DNA of 64,000 nucleotides. Source: Acidimicrobiia bacterium (GTDB lineage Bacteria > Actinomycetota > Acidimicrobiia > Acidimicrobiales > VFJN01). The notes below the pieces were generated by a model, which saw only the letters and a list, made by a program, of their open reading frames with translations, was not told where the DNA came from and did not search any database. The stretch spans positions 1 to 64,000 of the forward strand of contig SHVB01000012.1 in assembly GCA_009694375.1 (NCBI GenBank). Reading direction: 5' to 3'. Below, one piece after another: positions 49,529 to 62,032 of the stretch. Positions within the stretch are counted from its first letter, which is position 1; every line of letters begins with the position of its first letter. Made by a program: the position numbers and the translations under genes.

Positions 49529-50791
49529 ATGGAGCCAATGACGGTCATTCGCCGCTGGGCGCTCTCGTTGCTGGCGGTTGGCCTGGGGGTGGCGTGGGCC
49601 GGTCCTTCGGCGCAGGCTGTATCCACCCCCGTCGATGATCCGATCTTCACCCAGGGCCTCCAGTGGGGTTTGGAGCAGATCCACGCACCGGGAGGGTGGG
49701 GCACCGCCACCGGCGAGGGCATCACCATCGCCATCATTGATTCGGGAGTCGACCTCACCCATGAGGACCTCCGCAGCAAACTGACCGCCCAGGCCAACTG
49801 CGTGGGTTCCAAGGGGGATTCTGCCCGGTGCACCGGATCAGCGCAGGACGATCACGGCCACGGCACTCACGTGGCCGGCATCGCCCTGGCCTCCACCAAC
49901 AACGGCGTGGGGATGGCTGGGGTGGCCCCCAACGCCCAACTGATGGCCGTACGAGTCCTCTCCAACCAGTGCGAAGACACTACCCCCGCTTGTGACGCCA
50001 CCGGCACCTCCGAGGACGTGTCGGCCGGGATTCGCTGGGCCACCGATCACGGCGCCGACATCATCAACCTCGCGCTCGGGGGCGGGGCGCAACAATCCGA
50101 CTTGGGCTGCTCGTTCTGCGAGGCCATCGACTACGCCTGGAGCAAGGACGTCATCGTGGTGCTCGCGGCGGGCAACGACTCCGTCCTGCCAGAAACCTTC
50201 GCCTCCAAACCGGCGGTCATCGTGAGCGCCACCAATCGCGCCGATACCCCCGCGTCCTACTCCAGTGCTCGCCAGGAGTTCCTCCGCTCAGCCCGTTGGG
50301 CGGTGGCCGCTCCTGGTGGCGAGGGCGATGCTCCCGGGCCAACGGACTGTTCCACCGGCGGAAATCCCCAGGGCATCATCTCCACGTACTGGGTGCCAGA
50401 GGAATCCAACCGCTACGCCTGTCTGGCCGGTACCTCGATGGCCAGCGCCCACACTGCGGGCGCCCTCGCCGTACTCCTCAGCACCGGTCTCACCCCCGAG
50501 GCCGCCATCGGCCGCCTCCTGGCCACCGCCGACGATCTCGGAGCACCCGGCCGTGACGACGACTACGGCGTGGGCCGTATCAACCTCGCCGCCGCCGTAG
50601 ATCCCGCCGTATCCGGCGTGGCTGACCCCGGCCCGAGGAGCCGGGAGGAGGCCGTGGCGTTCGTCGACACCTCCACCGGCGCCAACCACCTCACTACCGC
50701 GGAGATAAGGGCCATCCTGGCGATCCTGCTCGCCACCGCCGGCGCCACCGCGCTCGGGGCCTCGCAACTGGTCAAACGCCAACACTCCTGA
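49529..50791 (+). CDS. Secreted subtilisin-like serine protease (S8) with C-terminal anchor
   Basis: A 420-residue exported protease. A signal peptide (ALSLLAVGLGVAWAGPSAQA) is followed by a subtilase domain with the full triad: IIDSGVDLTHED (Asp), DDHGHGTHVAGIA (His) and LAGTSMASAHTAG (Ser), plus the oxyanion Asn in AAGNDS. Several cysteine pairs suggest disulfides. A C-terminal hydrophobic segment (ILAILLATAGATALGAS) and a basic tail fit membrane anchoring, as in mycosins, but no type VII secretion genes are nearby. Starts at 49529 or 49538. Confidence 0.9.
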   Translation: MEPMTVIRRWALSLLAVGLGVAWAGPSAQAVSTPVDDPIFTQGLQWGLEQIHAPGGWGTATGEGITIAIIDSGVDLTHEDLRSKLTAQANCVGSKGDSARCTGSAQDDHGHGTHVAGIALASTNNGVGMAGVAPNAQLMAVRVLSNQCEDTTPACDATGTSEDVSAGIRWATDHGADIINLALGGGAQQSDLGCSFCEAIDYAWSKDVIVVLAAGNDSVLPETFASKPAVIVSATNRADTPASYSSARQEFLRSARWAVAAPGGEGDAPGPTDCSTGGNPQGIISTYWVPEESNRYACLAGTSMASAHTAGALAVLLSTGLTPEAAIGRLLATADDLGAPGRDDDYGVGRINLAAAVDPAVSGVADPGPRSREEAVAFVDTSTGANHLTTAEIRAILAILLATAGATALGASQLVKRQHS

Positions 50792-50830: not shown

Positions 50831-51907
50831 CTAGCCCACCAACGGGGTGGTCAAGACAGCCGCCAAGACCGCATAGGACCGCTCGAGCGAAGCCCGATCA
50901 ACCCGCTCGTCGGCGCGGTGAGCCAGGACGGCATCACCCGGACCGAGGTTGCAGGCCGGGATGCCCGCCGCCGCAAACCGCGCCACGTCGGTCCACCCCA
51001 ACTTGGCCTGTACCGCGAGGTGGTGGTCCTCCACCAGAGAACGCAGGACCGGGTGATCCAGACCGGGCAGGGCTCCCGCGGCCACCTCGATGAGGTCCAC
51101 CTCGTCGCCGTCGTCCAGAACGGGGGCCAGCAGGGCCCGCACCTCCGCCTCGGCCTGCTCGGGGCTGCGATCGGGGGCGAACCGCCGGTTGATCACCACG
51201 ACCGCCTCATCGGGGACCACGTTGCTGGCAACTCCCCCTGTCACCGACACGGCTTGCAGTGCCTCACGGAACTCGCACCCCTGAATCACCGGGGCCCGCT
51301 CCTCGAAGGCCTCCACCGCCTGGAGCACGGCACCGAGGCGGTGGATGGCATTACGGCCCATCCACGGTCGTGCGGTGTGGGCGCGCTCGCCACGCACCGT
51401 CACCTGCATCCGCAGTGTGCCCTGGCACCCAGCCTCCACCTCACCGCCGGTGGGCTCGCCGAGGATCGCCACATCCCCCGCCAGTAAATCGGGACGATCC
51501 GCCATGAGATGGGCGAGCCCGTTGTGCACCGCCGCCACCTCCTCGCCGGCGTAGAACACGAAGGTCACCTCCACCGCGGGATTCGGGATGGCCTCGGCCA
51601 ACGCCAACATCACCGCCAAGCCCCCCTTCATGTCCGATGCCCCGAGGCCCCAGAGCACATCGCCCTCGATCCGAGCGACGGCATTTCCGCTAGCCGGCAC
51701 CGTGTCGGTGTGACCGGCCAAGATGACCCGGTGCCCGTGCCCACCCTCGGTGCGGGCCACGAGGTTGGCCCCCACCCGCTCTACCACGAGGTGAGGAAGA
51801 GCCCGCAGACGAGCTTCGAGATAGGCCGTGAGGGCCGCCTCGTGGTGACTCTCGGAGGGAATGTCGACCAACGAGGCGGTGAGGGCCAGCAAATCGACGG
51901 AGGGCAT
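50831..51907 (-). CDS. dapE: Succinyl-diaminopimelate desuccinylase
   Basis: A 358-residue M20-family dizinc amidohydrolase of lysine/DAP biosynthesis. Metal and catalytic motifs: ILAGHTDTVPASGN (His, Asp), WGLGASDMKGGLAVML (bridging Asp), FVFYAGEEVAAVHNG (catalytic Glu pair) and the C-terminal His in AVLAHRADE. The dimerisation domain has GERAHTARPWMGRNAIHR. It is divergent from dapD by 48 nt, and dapC and dapF follow, which fixes the substrate as N-succinyl-DAP rather than another acylated amino acid. Confidence 0.95.
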   Translation of the reverse strand: MPSVDLLALTASLVDIPSESHHEAALTAYLEARLRALPHLVVERVGANLVARTEGGHGHRVILAGHTDTVPASGNAVARIEGDVLWGLGASDMKGGLAVMLALAEAIPNPAVEVTFVFYAGEEVAAVHNGLAHLMADRPDLLAGDVAILGEPTGGEVEAGCQGTLRMQVTVRGERAHTARPWMGRNAIHRLGAVLQAVEAFEERAPVIQGCEFREALQAVSVTGGVASNVVPDEAVVVINRRFAPDRSPEQAEAEVRALLAPVLDDGDEVDLIEVAAGALPGLDHPVLRSLVEDHHLAVQAKLGWTDVARFAAAGIPACNLGPGDAVLAHRADERVDRASLERSYAVLAAVLTTPLVG

Positions 51908-51955
51908 CCCTCCAGGTTACGAGGTACGACCCCTCCACCGATACGGTTAGGTCGG

Positions 51956-52942
51956 ATGAGTACAACCGACCTCGCCTCTGGTGGCGCCCGCGCCGTTGGG
52001 CTAGCCACCCACACCCCCCACGGCGGGGTGCTTGACACCTGGTTCCCGCACCCTGAGCGCACCGAAAGCGAAAACACGGCCGGCACCGAGGTGCTCACCG
52101 CCGACGCCGCAATCGCCGCTCTGGGCGAGGCCGCCGGTGACGCCCTCGGCCCCGATGCCGGTCGCAACGTGAAGATCGTGGCCGTGCACACCACCATCGC
52201 GGCGCTGTCGGATCCGCCGGTGGACACCCACGATGTCTACCTCCGTCTCCACCTTCTCTCCCACCGACTGGTGCGCCCGAACAGCATCAACCTCACCGGC
52301 ATCTTCGCGCTGCTACCGACAGTGGCCTGGACTCAACTCGGCCCAGTGGCGATCGACGAACTCGCCGCTGCCCAACTCCGGGCCCGAGCGTCGGGCACGG
52401 CGTTGTACATACATTCCCTCGACAAGTTTCCGCCGATGGCCAACTACGTAACTCCCGCCGGGGTGCGCGTGGCGGACGCATCCCGGGTGCGCCTCGGGGC
52501 CCACCTCGCCGAGGGCACCACCGTGATGCATGAGGGTTACGTGAACTTCAACGCCGGAACCCTGGGCACGGCCATGGTGGAAGGCCGCATCAGCCAGGGG
52601 GTGGTGGTGGGCGACCAGTCCGACATCGGCGGCGGTGCCTCCATCATGGGCACCCTCTCCGGGGGCGGTACCGAGGTGGTGCAGATCGGCGAACGCTGTC
52701 TACTCGGGGCCAACAGCGGCATCGGTATCTCGCTGGGTGACGAGTGCATCGTGGAGGCCGGCCTCTACATCACCGCCGGCACCCGCGTCACCCTTCCCGA
52801 TGGTCAGGTGGTGAAAGCCCGCCAGTTGAGCGGGCGCTCCGGACTGCTGTTCATTCGCAACAGTGTCAGCGGTAGCGTGGAAGCCCGAGCCCGCTCAGGA
52901 GGGCCAATCCCTCTCAACATGGATTTGCATGGCCACAACTGA
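51956..52942 (+). CDS. dapD: Tetrahydrodipicolinate N-succinyltransferase
   Basis: A 328-residue hexapeptide acyltransferase of the actinobacterial DapD type. The N-terminal domain contains LRLHLLSHRLVRPNSINL and the beta-helix runs through VRVADASRVRLGAHLAEGTT, GYVNFNAGTLGTAMVEGRI (typical DapD core), DIGGGASIMGTLSGGGTEVV and GANSGIGISLGDECIVEAG. The ATG is at 51956; the frame stays open upstream but that overlaps dapE. Divergent from dapE, so the two share a short control region. Confidence 0.95.
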   Translation: MSTTDLASGGARAVGLATHTPHGGVLDTWFPHPERTESENTAGTEVLTADAAIAALGEAAGDALGPDAGRNVKIVAVHTTIAALSDPPVDTHDVYLRLHLLSHRLVRPNSINLTGIFALLPTVAWTQLGPVAIDELAAAQLRARASGTALYIHSLDKFPPMANYVTPAGVRVADASRVRLGAHLAEGTTVMHEGYVNFNAGTLGTAMVEGRISQGVVVGDQSDIGGGASIMGTLSGGGTEVVQIGERCLLGANSGIGISLGDECIVEAGLYITAGTRVTLPDGQVVKARQLSGRSGLLFIRNSVSGSVEARARSGGPIPLNMDLHGHN

Positions 52943-52964
52943 AAACCCACTAGATTTTGGCGCA

Positions 52965-54014
52965 ATGGACGACCCGAACTCGCGGCGCGATGGCGCCACC
53001 CAGGCCGCGCTCCTGGGCTTCAGTCGCCAATTCGACACCGTATCCAGTTCCATGGCGGCCATCGCCGTGGGTCAGCGCGAACTCCTCGGGCGGATGGCGG
53101 AAGCGGAAACAAAACGCCGTCAGGACGCGTTGGAGTTGGGCCGTCGCCTGGAGGCCGTCGAACGTCTGCGCCTCGATCTCGGTCTGGCCGACCGCCTCGA
53201 CGACCTCCTCGCCGCCCACCAGGAGCACCAGGCCACCCTGCAACATCTCAGCGAGAGCACTGCCGTGCTCACGGCGATGCTGGGTGAGTTGGTGGAGCGC
53301 CCCGGCGCCCCCAGCCCGGTGCCTTCCCCGGCGGGCGCGTTCCCCGAAGTGATCGTGCCCGACGGGGTTACCCTGCCCCGTAACATTGACGCCGACCTGG
53401 CCCCCTTGCGCGGCCAACTGTTGGACCTCGCGGTCACCGCTGCTCATCAACGAGACGACCTTGCCCGGGTGGCCGATGCGGTGGCCACCCTCGGAGCCCG
53501 CCCGGCCGACATCACGGCCATGGGTCCGGTCATCGCCCGGGTCAACGACTTGACCAGTGCCGTGCAATCCATCAGTGGTCAGCTCCCCCAACTGGGTGAC
53601 AACGTTACTCACCGCCTTACCGAGCACACCGATACGGCCCTGGCGGGGGTGCTGCGCCTCCTCGACGGCCGTCTCGCCGCCCTTCGCCGGGCTCTGGCCG
53701 ACGCCGGGTCACCGAGCACCTCCCCCACCGGCGAGACCACCCTCGATGCCGAAACCGTGATGGGGATGGCCCAGGCCAGTTGGAATCATCTGGAACAACG
53801 GATCGACACGGAGTTCGACGACCTCGGCCGACAGCTTCAGGCGATGGCCGCCTTGATCGAGGCGGTGGTCGTCTCCAATGAAGATTTGGCCAACCGACCC
53901 ATCGTGACGGGGGAACAGTTCCGCCGAGCCGCCACGTCGGTCAAAGAGACCGTGGTGACCGCCAACCGAAACCGACGCCAGCGCCGGGGTGGACCCAAAA
54001 GTCTCGAGTCCTAG
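52965..54014 (+). CDS. Hypothetical coiled-coil protein downstream of dapD
   Basis: A 349-residue soluble protein of unknown family. It is almost entirely helical with long heptad-like segments (LGRRLEAVERLRLDLGLADR, DDLARVADAVATLGARP, VIARVNDLTSAVQSISGQL), a Pro-rich break near residues 110-130 and a basic tail (VTANRNRRQRRGGPKSLES). There is no signal peptide. The preferred ATG is 52965; an upstream ATG at 52929 would overlap dapD by 14 nt. It is likely co-transcribed with dapD and converges on dapC with a 4-nt overlap. It might be structural or partition-related; no function is claimed. Confidence 0.7.
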   Translation: MDDPNSRRDGATQAALLGFSRQFDTVSSSMAAIAVGQRELLGRMAEAETKRRQDALELGRRLEAVERLRLDLGLADRLDDLLAAHQEHQATLQHLSESTAVLTAMLGELVERPGAPSPVPSPAGAFPEVIVPDGVTLPRNIDADLAPLRGQLLDLAVTAAHQRDDLARVADAVATLGARPADITAMGPVIARVNDLTSAVQSISGQLPQLGDNVTHRLTEHTDTALAGVLRLLDGRLAALRRALADAGSPSTSPTGETTLDAETVMGMAQASWNHLEQRIDTEFDDLGRQLQAMAALIEAVVVSNEDLANRPIVTGEQFRRAATSVKETVVTANRNRRQRRGGPKSLES

Positions 54015-55105
54015 CGGAGATGCCCTAGACGCTCGACCACGCGAGCGATCTGCTCATCGGACTGCACCGCCGCCAAACGGATAAAGGTGGCGCCATCGGG
54101 ACCATAGAACTCTCCCGGCGATACCAGCACGCCCCCGCGGTCGGCGAGGAGGCGAGCCAGGGCCCAGGCATCCCCATCGGGGGCAGGGCTCCACAGGTAA
54201 AACGCCCCGGCGGGCAGGGGCGTTTCGATGCCGATGGACCCAAGAGCGGCGGCGAGTTGTTCGAGCCGGCCCCAGTAGCGGCGCCGCTGATCATCCACAT
54301 GAACGTCATCGGCCCACGCTGCCACCGCCGCCGCCTGCACCGGGCCGGGCACCATAAACCCCGCGTGTTTGCGGAGTTCGGAGAGATAGCGCACCAGGTC
54401 GGCGTCGCCCACGTAGAACCCGGCGCGCACCCCGGCCAGGTTCGACCGTTTCGACAGCGAGTGCACCGCCAAGACCCCTTCGGCACCGTGCTCGAGAATG
54501 GTGCGGGGCGGCCCTTCCCAGGTGAACTCTATGTAGCACTCGTCGGACAGCACCGGCACATTCCGGTGGCGACCCCACGCCGCCGCCGCCCCCAGATCGA
54601 CGAGTTCCCCGGTGGGGTTGGCAGGCCCATTGACCCAAAGGCACAGCGCTCGATCGGCGTCGGCCGGGCTGATGTCGGCCAGGCTGCGATACGGCACGGC
54701 GCGACACCCCGCCAGGGTGGCCCCCATGGCATAGGTGGGATAACTGATCGCCGGATACAAGACAGTGTCGCGATCGGGGCGACGGAGACGGAGCCACTGG
54801 GGCAGACCCGCCACCAGTTCCTTGCTGCCCACACAAGCCGCCACCCCCGACGGGTCCACCTCCACGCCCAGGCGACGCGCCATCCATCCCGCCGCCGCGG
54901 TGCGGTAAGCCAGCGTACCGATGGACGGCGGATAGCCCCGCTCCGCCCCGGACCGGGCGAGCGCTTCGATCACCGAGGCCACCGGGGGATCACCCGGGGT
55001 GCCGATCGACAGGTCGATGAGACCACCGTCGTGGTGGGCGGCGTACCCCTTCAGTTCGTCGAGCCGGTCGTAGGGATACGGCGGGGGAAGAAACGGCTCG
55101 GTCAT
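54011..55105 (-). CDS. dapC: Succinyldiaminopimelate transaminase
   Basis: A 364-residue fold-type I PLP aminotransferase. The PLP lysine is in VHSLSKRSNLAGVRAG, the ring-stacking and phosphate contacts in LWVNGPANPTGELVDL and LSDECYIEFTW, and the C-terminal arginine in ATFIRLA. The subgroup and the surrounding dap genes indicate conversion of N-succinyl-2-amino-6-ketopimelate to N-succinyl-DAP. Its ATG overlaps the hflX stop (ATGA), so it is translationally coupled to hflX. Confidence 0.93.
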   Translation of the reverse strand: MTEPFLPPPYPYDRLDELKGYAAHHDGGLIDLSIGTPGDPPVASVIEALARSGAERGYPPSIGTLAYRTAAAGWMARRLGVEVDPSGVAACVGSKELVAGLPQWLRLRRPDRDTVLYPAISYPTYAMGATLAGCRAVPYRSLADISPADADRALCLWVNGPANPTGELVDLGAAAAWGRHRNVPVLSDECYIEFTWEGPPRTILEHGAEGVLAVHSLSKRSNLAGVRAGFYVGDADLVRYLSELRKHAGFMVPGPVQAAAVAAWADDVHVDDQRRRYWGRLEQLAAALGSIGIETPLPAGAFYLWSPAPDGDAWALARLLADRGGVLVSPGEFYGPDGATFIRLAAVQSDEQIARVVERLGHLR

Positions 55106-56388
55106 GAGCGCACCAAAAAGGCCGAAAAGTGACCGAGGGAGGCATCGTCGAAACGCACCCGGAGACGCATCGCGTCATCATCGGCGGCTTCGCTCAGGAC
55201 CTCCCCTTCCCGGTGGACCTTGGCCAGCACGTCGCCGCGGTCGTAGGGGATGAGCAACTCCACCACGTTGGTCAGCGCCCGCAACCGGGCGGCCATGGTG
55301 AGGAGCAAACCTTCCACGCCCTCGCCGGTGGTGGCACTAAAGGCCACCGCACCCTCGTGGGCCGCCGCGAGGCGAGCGGCATCGGCCGGGGCCCGGTCGG
55401 CCTTGTTGAAGGCGTAGAGCACCGGCACCTCATCGGCCTCGATCTCGCGAAGGACAGTGCGCACCGCCCTGATGTTGCCGTCGATGTCCAGCGCCGAGGC
55501 ATCGACCACGTGGACGAGGAGATCGGCATCGGCGGCCACCGAAAGGGTGGACGTGAAGGCCTGCACCAACTGATGGGGCAGGTTGCGAATGAAACCCACG
55601 GTGTCGGTGAGCAACACCTTCTCTCCCCCGGGCAGGTCGAGCCGGCGCGTCGTGGCATCCAGGGTGGCGAAGAGGCGGTCCTCCACCAGTACCCCGGCAT
55701 CGGTGAGTTGATTCAACAGAGTGGACTTACCGGCGTTGGTGTAGCCCACGATGGCCACCCGCTGGGTGCGGCTGCGGTGCTGCGACTTCCGCTGCGTGGC
55801 CCGGTGCTTATCCAGTTCCCGCAACTCGGCTTCGAGCTTGTGAATGCGCCGTTGGATCCGACGCCGATCCACCTCCAGCTGGGTCTCCCCCGGGCCGCGC
55901 GTGCCGATCCGGGCACCGCCCGCCGACGCGCCACCCCCTTGCTGGGACAGCGCCAATCCCTTGCCCCGAATGCGTGGCAGTCGATATCGCAGCAGGGCCA
56001 GTTCCACCTGCGCCTTGCCTTCCTGGCTGTGCGCGTTCTGGGCGAAGATGTCGAGAATCACCGCAGTGCGGTCGATGGCGGTGCGCCCGAGGAGCTTTTC
56101 GAGATTCCGCTGCTGGGCGGGGGTCAGTTCGTTGTCGAAGACCACGGTGTCGCAGTCTGTTTCGAGAGCGATCTCCCGGAGTTCCTCCACCTTGCCCTTG
56201 CCGATGTAGGTGGGCGGATCGGGAGCGGACCGGCGCTGCAGGAGGCGAGCCACCTCATCAGCCCCGGCGGTGTCCACGAGTTGAGAGAGTTCGTCGAGAC
56301 CGGCTTCGGTGTCCTCCACTCGTCGTGGTGGCAGGGTGACCCCCACCAGGACGATCTTCTCCCGAAAGGCGCGTTCAATCAGCGACAC
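55102..56388 (-). CDS. hflX: Ribosome-associated GTPase HflX
   Basis: A 428-residue GTPase that rescues stalled ribosomes. The N-terminal domain carries YIGKGKVEELRE, VVFDNELTPAQQRNLE and the RGPGETQLEVDRRRI helix. The G domain has GYTNAGKST (G1), DTVGFIRNLPHQLV (G3) and NKADRAP (G4). I chose the GTG at 56388 with GAGG eight bases upstream; it follows dapF by about 20 nt. The frame is open further upstream but inside dapF. Downstream is dapC (ATGA overlap). Confidence 0.93.
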   Translation of the reverse strand: MSLIERAFREKIVLVGVTLPPRRVEDTEAGLDELSQLVDTAGADEVARLLQRRSAPDPPTYIGKGKVEELREIALETDCDTVVFDNELTPAQQRNLEKLLGRTAIDRTAVILDIFAQNAHSQEGKAQVELALLRYRLPRIRGKGLALSQQGGGASAGGARIGTRGPGETQLEVDRRRIQRRIHKLEAELRELDKHRATQRKSQHRSRTQRVAIVGYTNAGKSTLLNQLTDAGVLVEDRLFATLDATTRRLDLPGGEKVLLTDTVGFIRNLPHQLVQAFTSTLSVAADADLLVHVVDASALDIDGNIRAVRTVLREIEADEVPVLYAFNKADRAPADAARLAAAHEGAVAFSATTGEGVEGLLLTMAARLRALTNVVELLIPYDRGDVLAKVHREGEVLSEAADDDAMRLRVRFDDASLGHFSAFLVRS

Positions 56389-56407
56389 GAGCAGGCCTCG
56401 CAGTTCG

Positions 56408-57202
56408 TCACGGCCACGGGGTTTCGATGGTGGCGACCGAGCGGGTGTCGCCGGTGAGCAAGACGGGCTCGCCGAGGGTGATCTCCAGGGCACCGCCGGG
56501 CATATGTACGGAGGTGTGCGCCCCGGTGATGCCCCACTGCTGGGCCGCCGCGGCCACGGCGCAGGATCCGGTGCCGCAAGACAAGGTGGGGCCCACCCCT
56601 CGCTCGTACACCACTGCGGCGAGCCCGTCAGCCCGGGGCCGGAAGATCTCCACGTTGGCTCCGCCGGGCGTGGAGTGATCGATGGGGGACCCCAGGGTGA
56701 TCAACTCATCACGATCGGGTAGTTCGGTGCCGCCCCACAGCAGCACGATGTGCGGGTTCCCCAGCTCCACGCGAACGGCGCGAAGCACCTGGCCCTCCAC
56801 CCACTCGGGGGTTTCCTCCCCCACCTGAGCCAACCCCATCTCCACGCTCATCCGGTGGAGGTCGGGATCGGAATGAGACAGGACCCGCACGGTGCGCACT
56901 CCCGCATCGGTGGCCACCTTCACAACCGGCGGCGCCACCAAACCAGCCTGAAACACCGCCTGCGCCAAACAGCGGATGCCGTTACCGCTCATCTCGGCCG
57001 ATGAACCGTCGGCATTCAGTAAGCGCATGGTCACATCGGCATCGCCATGACCGTCGGTGACCCACAGCAACCCATCGGCCCCGATGCCGGTGCGCCGGTC
57101 GCACAGCGCGATCGCCATTTCCGGCCCCACCGGGTGCGCGGCGGCGAGGTCGATCACGACCAGAAAGTCGTTACCCAGCCCGTGGTGCTTGGTGAGTTGC
57201 AT
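56408..57202 (-). CDS. dapF: Diaminopimelate epimerase DapF with Ser in place of first catalytic Cys
   Basis: A 264-residue epimerase converting LL-DAP to meso-DAP for lysine and peptidoglycan. The fold markers are there: KHHGLGNDFLVV, TGIGADGLL, NADGS and the second catalytic cysteine in PTLSCGTGSCA. The first motif, normally MCGNGIRC, reads MSGNGIRC (S72, codon AGC at 56989-56987). In characterised enzymes this cysteine is one of the two acid/base residues. Serine here would be expected to lower activity unless this lineage has adapted. The rest of the protein is intact and the operon context (miaA before, hflX after) is normal. Confidence 0.93.
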   Translation of the reverse strand: MQLTKHHGLGNDFLVVIDLAAAHPVGPEMAIALCDRRTGIGADGLLWVTDGHGDADVTMRLLNADGSSAEMSGNGIRCLAQAVFQAGLVAPPVVKVATDAGVRTVRVLSHSDPDLHRMSVEMGLAQVGEETPEWVEGQVLRAVRVELGNPHIVLLWGGTELPDRDELITLGSPIDHSTPGGANVEIFRPRADGLAAVVYERGVGPTLSCGTGSCAVAAAAQQWGITGAHTSVHMPGGALEITLGEPVLLTGDTRSVATIETPWP

Positions 57203-57206
57203 GCCG

Positions 57207-58121
57207 TCAGCAGCCTAGGTGCGCGGCCAGGTCGTCTACGAGCAGGTTGGCCTCACCGGGGGCGTCAAGCCAGGAAATGCGCGGGTCTCGTCCGAACCAC
57301 GCTCGTTGCCGACGGGCGAAGCGGGTGGTGCGGGCCACTGCTTGATCAACGGCGTCAGACAGGCTCACCTCACCCGCCTGGAAAGCAGCCAACTCCAGGT
57401 AGCCGAGGGCCTGCCGAGCGGTGGGAGACATCGGGCGCGGCGCCGCCATCAGACCGGCCACCTCGGCCAGGAACCCGCGCGCCAATTGCTCGTCGTAACG
57501 CTCCCGTATCCGTACCCGCAGGGTCTCGGGATCTCGCCGGATTCCCACCATGGTGAAGGGCGCGGGCGGGTGCGCTTCCATGCCCGGACCGAAACTGGAG
57601 AAAGGACGACCACTACCCACGGTCACCTCGAGCGCCCGTACGATCCGCCGTCGATTCCCCGGATCGATACGAGACGCCCCCAGTGGGTCCTGGCTCTGGA
57701 GTTGGGCAAAGAGCGCCGCCGTGGCGGGGTTGGCCTCGATGGTGGCGCGGGCGGCTGGGAACTGACCCGGGATGTCCAGATCATCCACGATGGCCTGCAC
57801 ATACAGCCCGGTGCCCCCCACCAGCAGGGCCCGTCGACCGCGAGAGGTGATATCGGCGAGCACCGCCATCACCTCTCGCTGAAACCATGCCACCGAACTG
57901 CTCTCCCACGGATCGAGACGGTCGATCATGTGGTGGGGCACCTCGGCCTGCTCGGCCAGGGTGGGTTTGGCCGTACCGATGTCCATCCCTCGGTAGACCT
58001 GCATCGAATCCACCGACACCAGCTCCCACGACGGATCCCGGCGCGCCAGCGCCATGGCCAGGGCCGACTTGCCCGATGCGGTCGCCCCCACCAGCACCGC
58101 ATGGGGCGACGAGGAGCTCAC
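57207..58121 (-). CDS. miaA: tRNA dimethylallyltransferase
   Basis: A 304-residue enzyme that adds dimethylallyl to A37 of tRNAs reading UNN codons. The P-loop is VLVGATASGKSALAMALARR, followed by the substrate-binding ELVSVDSMQVYRGMDIGTAKP and LVGGTGLYVQAIVDDLD, and near the end TTRFARRQRAWFGRDPRI. The start is a GTG at 58121 overlapping the GNAT stop (GTGA); the open frame continues upstream without MiaA similarity. MiaB, which methylthiolates the same base, is two genes upstream. Confidence 0.95.
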   Translation of the reverse strand: MSSSSPHAVLVGATASGKSALAMALARRDPSWELVSVDSMQVYRGMDIGTAKPTLAEQAEVPHHMIDRLDPWESSSVAWFQREVMAVLADITSRGRRALLVGGTGLYVQAIVDDLDIPGQFPAARATIEANPATAALFAQLQSQDPLGASRIDPGNRRRIVRALEVTVGSGRPFSSFGPGMEAHPPAPFTMVGIRRDPETLRVRIRERYDEQLARGFLAEVAGLMAAPRPMSPTARQALGYLELAAFQAGEVSLSDAVDQAVARTTRFARRQRAWFGRDPRISWLDAPGEANLLVDDLAAHLGC

Positions 58122-58630
58122 GCGGGGCGGAGATCCTTGGCGAAGCAGACCGAATCGGGATCGTCCTGATAGCGACCGTAGAGCGCGATGCGATGCCACC
58201 CGTGCGACGCATACAGCGCCAGCGCCTCGGGCTGTGCGGTGCCGGTCTCCAGCTGCAGCGTGCGGTAGCCCAGCGCGGCGGCGACGGCCTCCAGGCGGCT
58301 GAGCACGGCTCGGCTCACCCCCCGTCGGCGGGCGACCGGCGCGGTGTACATCCGCTTCACCTCGGCCACGCCTGAGCCAGCGTCGAGGGGCTTGAGGGCT
58401 CCGCACCCGGCTGGTTCGCCATCCAGCCAGGCGACCACGAAGGTGCCGTGGGGGTGCGCCACCAGATCAGGCGAGATCTCCGCCAAGTAGCCGGCATGGT
58501 CCTCCTCGTGCTGATCGGGAGTCATGTCCACCATCGCATAGGCGTAGCGGTGCTCGATGTCCGTGTGGAGGGCCGCCACCAGGGCCACCGCCACCGCGTC
58601 GTCGTAGGGCACCTCGGTGATCTCGATCAA
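58118..58630 (-). CDS. GNAT family N-acetyltransferase
   Basis: A 170-residue acetyltransferase. Core motifs are VAWLDGEPAGCGALKPLD, VAEVKRMYTAPVARRRGVSR (acetyl-CoA loop R-R-x-G-x-S) and LQLETGTAQPEALALYASHGW. The substrate is unknown. The start is TTG (58630) overlapping the miaB stop as TTGA, and the end overlaps miaA as GTGA, so it is tightly embedded between the two tRNA modification genes. Confidence 0.88.
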   Translation of the reverse strand: MIEITEVPYDDAVAVALVAALHTDIEHRYAYAMVDMTPDQHEEDHAGYLAEISPDLVAHPHGTFVVAWLDGEPAGCGALKPLDAGSGVAEVKRMYTAPVARRRGVSRAVLSRLEAVAAALGYRTLQLETGTAQPEALALYASHGWHRIALYGRYQDDPDSVCFAKDLRPA

Positions 58631-61399: not shown

Positions 61400-62032
61400 T
61401 CAGATGTCGAACCGCGGGCGCCCGCGCAATGACCGTTTCAGTTCGCTGAAGTGAGGGTTGTGGCCGAGGACCACCACGGCGTCCCACAGATCCAACGCCT
61501 CCTGACCCTGGGGGGCCTCATTGATAATCGGACCAAAGAAACTGGGCCCATCGGGGGGTCCAAAGGTGAGCACAGGGGTCCCAATGTTACCGCCACAGCG
61601 GTCGAGGGCGACCTGTGTCTCCCGCGCGATGAGGGCATCGTGTTCGGTGCTGGTGGCGGTAGCCCCCAGGCCCACCGGGTACCCCAGTGCCTCCAGGATG
61701 TCCGCCACCCCCGCCGGGGTATCGAAGCGGGCCGCATCCCCCTCATGGTGAAGCGCCTCGCCGAAGGCGGTGAACAGTGGCAGCACCGCCGCCTCCCCCA
61801 ACTCGATCCGCACGCCCGCCGCCACCCGCAGCAACTCGAGGCCCCGGGTGTGGCGACGTTCGTGCCCGGGGGCGAAATCCGTCGCGTAATCCCGTTCTCC
61901 ATTGACCATGCGCAGAGAAATAAACCGCCAGTGCACCTCGATAGGTCGCTCCTCCATCACATTGAGCACCCAGCGCGACGTAAGCCACGCCCACGGGCAA
62001 ACGGGGTCCCAAAAGAAATCCACTTCAGTCAT
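61400..62032 (-). CDS. DsbA-like oxidoreductase of the Rv2466c (mycothiol nitroreductase) type
   Basis: A 210-residue thioredoxin-fold protein with a large helical insertion. The start VDFFWDPVCPWAWLTSRWVL corresponds to the CPWC active site of the mycobacterial mycothiol-dependent reductase Rv2466c, but here it is CPWA, with only the first cysteine. Other features match the family (FFGPIINEAPQG, LWDAVV, HNPHFSELKRSLRGRPRFDI). A monothiol mechanism with mycothiol is possible. It lies between cinA and recA on the same strand, upstream of the recA promoter. Confidence 0.85.
   Translation of the reverse strand: MTEVDFFWDPVCPWAWLTSRWVLNVMEERPIEVHWRFISLRMVNGERDYATDFAPGHERRHTRGLELLRVAAGVRIELGEAAVLPLFTAFGEALHHEGDAARFDTPAGVADILEALGYPVGLGATATSTEHDALIARETQVALDRCGGNIGTPVLTFGPPDGPSFFGPIINEAPQGQEALDLWDAVVVLGHNPHFSELKRSLRGRPRFDI

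Follow-up and report, generated by a model that had tools for sequence, protein, structure and literature searches.

The 64,000-nucleotide stretch of Acidimicrobiia DNA analysed here (the window) carries one diaminopimelate (DAP) epimerase gene, dapF, whose product has a serine in place of the first of the two catalytic cysteines. This gene is very probably a true dapF, the only one detected in its genome, and its product a working DAP epimerase with an unequal Ser72/Cys209 pair. Sequence, orthology, conservation, single copy, pathway context and predicted fold were computed here, and it is from these that activity, the roles of Ser72 and Cys209, the relative rate and the direction are proposed. 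DapF serves as a model for amino-acid epimerisation without a cofactor; its cysteine pair is regarded both as the machinery of the reaction and as what aziridine inhibitors target. Every DapF read in the order to which the window belongs lacks the cysteine of the L side, though the same mutation nearly kills the enzymes that have been studied, and what an active site needs in order to work with serine thereby becomes directly testable. The Ser/Cys DapF of the window is a real, clade-wide and probably functional variant of a known enzyme. If it does function, nature makes exceptions to the rule on which TIGR00652 annotation, the PROSITE signature and inhibitor design are built.

The dapF gene, its product and its neighbours

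The dapF ORF encodes 264 aa in an intact reading frame, and its translation reads ...NADGSSAEMSGNGIRCLAQ... The features of this part of the window are as follows.

56408-57202, minus strand: dapF, DAP epimerase orthologue with a Ser72/Cys209 pair (TIGR00652, PF01678, AlphaFold2 model)
56987-56989, minus strand: codon AGC of Ser72, at the position of the first catalytic cysteine (codon reading and alignment)
56576-56578, minus strand: codon TGC of Cys209, the second catalytic cysteine, which is kept (codon reading and alignment)
57207-58406, minus strand: miaA, directly upstream of dapF (TIGR00174, 239.3 bits; synteny)
55102-56493, minus strand: hflX, downstream; the ORFs as listed overlap at the 3' end of dapF (TIGR03156, 433.9 bits)
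54011-55105, minus strand: dapC, succinyl-DAP aminotransferase of the actinobacterial type (TIGR03539, 358.6 bits, cut-off 355.65)
51509-52942, plus strand: dapD, tetrahydrodipicolinate N-succinyltransferase (TIGR03535, 455.8 bits, cut-off 441.5)
50831-51907, minus strand: dapE, succinyl-DAP desuccinylase (TIGR01900, 441.3 bits, cut-off 304.2)

Ser72 lies in the motif E-M-S-G-N-G and Cys209 in TLSCGTG. The plus-strand triplets GCT (56987-56989), CAT (56990-56992) and CTC (56993-56995) stand for Ser72, Met71 and Glu70, and the interval 56987-56995, where the sequence-only reading had noted an MSGNG motif with Ser72 replacing the first catalytic cysteine, is exactly Glu70-Met71-Ser72; the AGC codon bears this replacement out. 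The same reading held the rest of the protein to be intact, and indeed Cys209 and the substrate-binding residues that were checked are all present. Ser72 aligns opposite the catalytic cysteine of the DapF enzymes from Anabaena (Cys75; 9mro, E 2.6e-38) and C. glutamicum (Cys83; 5h2g). Its equivalent in H. influenzae DapF is presumably Cys73, the title of PDB entry 2q9h naming a C73S mutant.

Against TIGR00652 the protein reaches 190.2 bits (cut-off 114.65), and against PF01678 it reaches 127.5 bits (cut-off 34.7), the latter being its sole Pfam family at E up to 0.001; in that search it had no match to PF05544, the proline racemase superfamily. An AlphaFold2 model built from a 56-sequence alignment has a mean pLDDT of 96.6 and the two-domain DapF fold, with the catalytic-site helices predicted to begin at residues 73 and 210. 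The nearest solved structure to this model is the closed form of Anabaena DapF (9mro; Z 35.5, rmsd 1.9 over 253 residues). Asn11, Asn63, Asn149, Asn183, Glu200 and Arg201, which are taken to be DAP-binding residues, are all present, and they are conserved at 97-100% in the Ser/Cys clade described below. Part of these role assignments comes from the available portion of PMC8225329, which also quotes the PROSITE signature of DapF as N-x-[DN]-[GS]-[SENGFT]-x(4)-C-[GI]-N-[GA]-x-R. The window protein departs from this signature and from the rule of two catalytic cysteines, with Ser72 instead of Cys at the first position and Cys209 present at the second. Its descent, fold, binding site and context make it a DapF; because it lacks one of the two cysteines, it is filed as a variant orthologue and not as a canonical DapF.

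The genes dapC, dapD and dapE of the actinobacterial succinylase route lie together with dapF inside 6.4 kb. The product of dapE, and of this route, is LL-DAP, the substrate of DapF. The miaA ORF as listed probably begins too early, its profile match starting at residue 104. Likewise, the listed dapD ORF overlaps dapE on the opposite strand, and its match from residue 160 places the true start probably downstream. An ORF of 383 aa beside dapD (52863-54014, plus strand) falls into none of the NCBIfam families at E up to 0.001, and its Pfam matches, to a coiled-coil domain and to a helical one, all stay below threshold. Also adjoining the dap genes, the ORF at 49529-50791 (plus strand) encodes a subtilase resembling the mycosin of type VII secretion (159 bits against a cut-off of 279), and further away the ORF at 61400-62032 (minus strand) belongs to the mycothiol-dependent nitroreductase family resembling Rv2466c (PF22234).

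Among loci that are partly redundant and have flanks of unequal length, miaA stands beside dapF in 166 of 192 Ser/Cys, 57 of 69 Cys/Cys, 9 of 9 Cys/Ser and 19 of 30 Ser/Ser loci, whereas hflX is found near dapF in 175 of 192 Ser/Cys loci and only 8 of 69 Cys/Cys loci. Only the miaA side is common to Ser/Cys and Cys/Cys loci, and hflX is mostly a feature of the Ser/Cys clade. On synteny and profile scores together, the Ser-type genes are read here as dapF orthologues and not as a new paralogue.

The genome of the window is a draft of 2.58 Mb in 36 contigs, estimated at 96% completeness. It has a single DapF, a LysA over cut-off (446 bits) and a MurE over cut-off whose motif DNPR we take to mark the DAP-adding type. 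Within this 96% complete assembly, neither a second DapF nor a match to meso-DAP dehydrogenase (Ddh) was found, and no proline-racemase-superfamily protein (PF05544) was detected in three genomes of the genus, the window's own included.

Distribution and history of the serine

How often related DapF proteins carry this serine was the check proposed from the sequence, and the result is uniform. Of 30 sampled relatives, 29 yielded a readable DapF, in every case with Ser; no locus was obtained from G026, and one of the two matches in G030 was read. At the level of the order, 36 of 37 genomes, the window's own included, were readable and all 36 have Ser: 34 were matched by a sequence pattern, and G087 and G103 were read by protein search, while neither pattern nor protein search found a DapF in G079. 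A separately named record, L130, encodes a 95%-identical protein with the same Ser. A sequence error, which had been named as what would overturn the observation, and an isolated mutation are both ruled out by the serine of the 29 relatives and 36 same-order genomes.

The wider class is mixed. It was sampled with 148 evenly drawn genomes, 103 of which were matched by a pattern admitting Cys, Ser or Thr. Among the 111 genomes outside the order, 69 were matched in DapF, with 32 Ser, 36 Cys and 1 Thr. Protein searches of 13 of the 42 pattern misses added ten with Cys at the first position, five of them from the reduced-genome family f33, together with one Ser (G170), one fragment lacking the site (G160) and one genome that gave nothing (G163); these class counts leave out 29 further f33 genomes. 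Two apparent extra Ser copies (G033:C103, and G219:C1:618100-620500; L218 and L248) proved to be chance pattern matches with no DapF homology. In a search of the phylum, Cys was by far the commonest residue among the matches listed.

A scan for AGY-coded serine, by construction blind to Cys forms, returned at least 119 stretches. Among the matches listed (80 rows) most are actinobacterial, and those of them with a name at a finer rank are Acidimicrobiia, Ilumatobacter or Acidimicrobiaceae; the others come from Methanophagales archaea, Chloroflexota, Acidobacteriota, Myxococcota and Lachnospiraceae. Two records of the collection carry titles at odds with their DapF active-site motif: that of L109, titled Bifidobacterium breve, matches Ilumatobacteraceae (L103), and that of L106, titled Candidatus Nitrosotalea, matches Methanophagales-like records. 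Judging by this motif resemblance only, the titles or contigs of these MAGs may be wrong.

Many DapF orthologues thus carry the serine. The sequence-only reading would have been overturned by many active enzymes of this kind, and none of the orthologues was found to have been assayed. That the serine is clade-wide, and that there are DapFs with neither cysteine, goes beyond what that reading had seen.

A DapF tree was computed by a quick method with the two catalytic columns masked; it is unrooted and supported by SH-aLRT only. It holds 150 rows, reduced from 302 good rows by removing near-duplicates, after the exclusion of fragments, of rows in which one of the catalytic sites was X or a gap, and of rows outside 225-330 aa. 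Its weak points are 59 of 147 inner branches below 80 SH-aLRT and three long rows. The Acidimicrobiia Ser/Cys DapFs fall into one clade of 61 rows, with one Thr/Cys row as the 62nd (SH-aLRT 98). A group of 17 Cys/Cys and four Cys/Ser rows from the same class is separate (support 93), and further Cys/Cys rows of the class lie elsewhere in the tree. Named records close to the window's DapF in this tree (L167) indicate Acidimicrobiales as the order to which the window belongs. The best tree has at least 13 changes of catalytic pair state over the 150 rows; those forced by starred branches are at least 5 for Ser/Cys, at least 2 for Cys/Ser and only 1 for Ser/Ser. Separate origins of Ser/Ser are nonetheless likely, though not forced by the tree.

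Within the clade, N63, G73, N74, G75, P150, H151, N183, E200, R201, C209 and G210 are invariant in all 61 Ser/Cys rows, and N11 and N149 are conserved at 97-98% (N11 at 98%). Both AGY and TCN serine codons occur, 25 and 9 respectively among the 34 same-order genomes matched by pattern; the two codon sets are not one base apart, which suggests that it is the serine residue that has been held by selection. The most economical history would be one Cys to Ser change near the base of the large Acidimicrobiia clade, then kept by selection, with the direction of change itself a supposition in an unrooted tree.

The clade also differs from Cys/Cys enzymes at other positions. Position 61 is Leu in 97% of its members, and at positions 3, 82 and 257, where Cys/Cys enzymes usually have an aromatic residue, most of them have lost it. 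An aromatic residue stands at position 61 in 38 of 61 Cys-state rows versus 1 of 88 Ser-state rows, a difference for which a tree-aware test offers only 4 independent pairs on starred branches, too few for significance. Among the columns listed, a scan of 260 columns found no compensating residue with statistical support, the independent pairs being too few.

Proposed mechanism and competing explanations

In the proposed mechanism, the two domains would close on LL-DAP and expel water, with Ser72 facing the L alpha-carbon and Cys209 placed across from it. One residue would take the alpha-proton and the other return one from the opposite side, giving meso-DAP, which would pass to LysA and, via the DAP-type MurE, to the cell wall. 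By its position Ser72 would be the L-side proton carrier, the role of the first cysteine in other DapFs, and Cys209 the D-side one. The N-terminal end of the central helix, where Ser72 sits, would assist it, and the helix dipole and the desolvation on closure are plausible aids. In Anabaena DapF, as described in the available text of PMC12039745, L,L-aziDAP alkylates Cys75, the first cysteine, and D,L-aziDAP alkylates Cys224, the second; the replaced residue would therefore face the L alpha-carbon and be the base for the biosynthetic direction, a role that asks much of a serine chemically.

A Ser/Cys enzyme draws support from the uniformity of the serine across a large clade, from the conservation of the rest of the site, from the miaA neighbour held in common with Cys/Cys relatives, and from there being one DapF in a genome that also has LysA. 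The sequence-only reading had offered two possibilities, that this lineage works with Ser/Cys or that another epimerase compensates; the former has gained this support, and for the latter nothing was found in the 96% complete genome among DapF, Ddh and PF05544. Among the points against a working Ser/Cys enzyme, LysA is over cut-off in only 12 of 15 Ser/Cys genomes, falling below it in G020 and G038 and missing in G061, and one Iamiaceae strain is given dd-DAP. Physiology in favour of such an enzyme comes from relatives, in which we infer the serine from the uniformity of the order. The Iamiaceae are a family within Acidimicrobiales, and of the six strains whose isomer is stated in the available part of the Actinospongicola paper, five have meso-DAP and the sixth 'dd-DAP', a seventh being unspecified (PMC12263773); the text names Actinomarinicola for dd-DAP, and the table apparently has it for a different strain. 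Four Acidimicrobiia strains are described as growing on bicarbonate as sole carbon source without vitamins (PMC11697166, as far as available) and must therefore make lysine.

The canonical DapF (TIGR00652; H. influenzae, E. coli, C. glutamicum, Anabaena and Arabidopsis) resembles the window protein in family, fold, substrate-binding residues and second cysteine, and the DapF genes of Cys/Cys relatives share its miaA neighbour, but the canonical enzyme has its first catalytic cysteine where the window DapF has Ser. The C. glutamicum enzyme has an active-site disulphide (PMC5296763, in the part available), which the window DapF is unable to form because its first Cys is Ser. The same change at the same position is found in H. 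influenzae DapF C73S (PDB 2q9h; Z 29.5 to the window model), but that is a laboratory mutant of a catalytically hindered kind and the window DapF is natural. According to the text available for each source, a PddB Cys to Ser mutant has less than 0.1% of wild-type activity, 'as reported in' Mt-DapF (PMC8225329), turnover is much lower in HisR mutants (PMC11602996), and Cys to Ser mutants of DapF-type enzymes are used to aid crystallisation, as catalysis is hindered (PMC12039745, PMC11602996). By analogy with these nearly dead engineered mutants, a serine by itself would be insufficient. No report of a natural Ser-type DapF was found in the open-access literature searched, and the available text of PMC5885031 mentions none.

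A close natural parallel in pair type lies outside the family. A 4-hydroxyproline 2-epimerase, B9JQV3 by its figure legend, is reported to epimerise with Ser93 and a Cys, the Ser being assigned to the trans to cis and the Cys to the cis to trans direction (PMC4113996, in the available portion, where text and legend differ in the accession and in the Cys number). It has a related fold that places Ser and Cys on opposite faces, as proposed for the window DapF, but belongs to PF05544 and acts on another substrate; judging from residue order, its Ser may correspond to the first DapF cysteine. Given this enzyme, the uniform loss of the L-side cysteine in the sampled order is less surprising than it would otherwise be. 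The same source proposes that in Ser-type enzymes of the proline racemase superfamily an Asn three residues after the Ser positions it. DapF lacks this Asn, with Gly75 at that place in the window protein and S-G-N-G in all 233 Ser rows. In other racemases, natural replacement of Cys by Thr is accompanied by one-way activity or by dehydration, as the accessible part of PMC8142540 describes: EcL-DER, a Cys/Thr Asp/Glu racemase, is irreversible, and MMP0739 is only predicted to be one-way. Like the window DapF, these cofactor-independent two-base racemases have naturally lost one thiol, but they belong to a different family and carry Thr rather than Ser.

Could the Ser protein be a weak or one-way epimerase that is enough because demand for meso-DAP is low, for example for lysine only in cells with an LL-DAP wall? 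This appears unlikely. Ilumatobacter has LL-DAP cell walls, which counts for it; such walls were not found in the open-access literature searched. The irreversibility of EcL-DER as a natural Thr/Cys enzyme (PMC8142540) and the slowness of Ser mutants of other enzymes (PMC8225329, PMC11602996), so far as these sources were available, speak for it too, but the meso-DAP of five of the six Iamiaceae strains and a perfectly conserved site with no sign of drift speak against it. Moreover, it is the L-side residue that has been replaced, and by analogy a one-way enzyme left with the other cysteine as its sole base would work the wrong way round.

A shift of the protein to a different substrate or to elimination chemistry, with an unknown enzyme epimerising DAP, is very improbable. 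Enzymes of the same fold with changed pairs do include dehydratases (PMC8142540, PMC4113996, in the parts available), and DapF-like proteins include racemases of histidine, 2,4-diaminobutyrate and O-ureidoserine. The gene nonetheless keeps its orthologous position next to miaA, with dap genes nearby, its DAP-binding residues including Glu200 and Arg201 are intact, it has no second copy in a genome that contains LysA and gives no Ddh match, and the three genomes of the genus that were searched have no match to the proline racemase superfamily. A sequencing error, a pseudogene or a mis-assembly, for which the draft state of a genome in 36 contigs might be cited, has next to no probability given the intact frame and the identical residue in the L130 protein. 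A working Ser/Cys epimerase accordingly remains the preferred explanation.

Other catalytic pairs in DapF

Both sites were read in 259 DapF ORFs, a redundant set enriched for Ser by the AGY-serine scan: 187 are Ser/Cys, 38 Cys/Cys, 17 Ser/Ser, 4 Cys/Ser, 1 Thr/Cys and 1 Ser/Asn, and 11 have one or both positions missing. PF01678 hits each half of DapF, and of 43 genomes searched with it 41 have two adjacent matches, that is one DapF, and 2 have four, that is two DapFs. Ser/Ser orthologues occur in Chloroflexota (L068, L077, L088, L105, L117, L159, L162, L178), Acidobacteriota (L079, L148) and the actinomycetotal families f88 and f91 (L239-L243). In L077 (Chloroflexota) the Ser/Ser gene is followed by one for LL-DAP aminotransferase (592.9 bits, PRK09276 subfamily), and the model of its product (pLDDT 93.6) again best matches closed Anabaena DapF (TM 0.90).

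Fourteen genomes have a Ser/Ser DapF as their single one (G305, G266, G324, G285, G256, G344, G396-G399 and G401-G404; the reading of G324 covers just the first position). Thirteen of them have a LysA over cut-off, while that of G404 is below it; Ddh is over cut-off in none, with weak partial matches in G266, G285 and G324. Nor is Ddh over cut-off in any of the 15 Ser/Cys genomes, where G002, G017, G020 and G065 have weak partial matches, or in the 5 Cys/Ser genomes, where LysA is over cut-off in 4 (none in G124). It is tentatively suggested, at somewhat less than even odds, that the thiol pair is not obligatory, that one or both of its cysteines have been replaced repeatedly, and that the Ser/Ser DapFs of Chloroflexota, Acidobacteriota and two actinobacterial families are sole DAP epimerases, in which case epimerisation would proceed with neither a cofactor nor a catalytic thiol. 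These enzymes are a bolder and more surprising lead than the Ser/Cys ones.

Among 41 genomes, Ddh is over cut-off only in two Lachnospiraceae (G405, G406); seven more give weak partial matches that stay under it. The single DapF of G405 is Ser/Asn, and G406 has a Ser/Ser copy beside a Cys/Cys copy; this contrast, in two genomes only, is as expected if Ddh relieves DapF while other lineages rely on theirs. The Ser/Asn protein (L112), in a genome with a strong Ddh, also has Ile for the Arg after GNG and S-R-G for E-R-G, and it is probably losing its role. A Cys/Cys copy besides the Ser/Ser one is likewise found in a myxococcotal genome (G400). The mirror image of the window enzyme, Cys/Ser, occurs in L227, L228, L230 and L269 (same class, family f35) and in L257, and one DapF inside the Ser/Cys clade, L213 of G092, is Thr/Cys with the codon ACC. 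TIGR00652 scores over its cut-off for every pair type tried, namely Ser/Cys, Ser/Ser, Cys/Ser, Thr/Cys and Ser/Asn.
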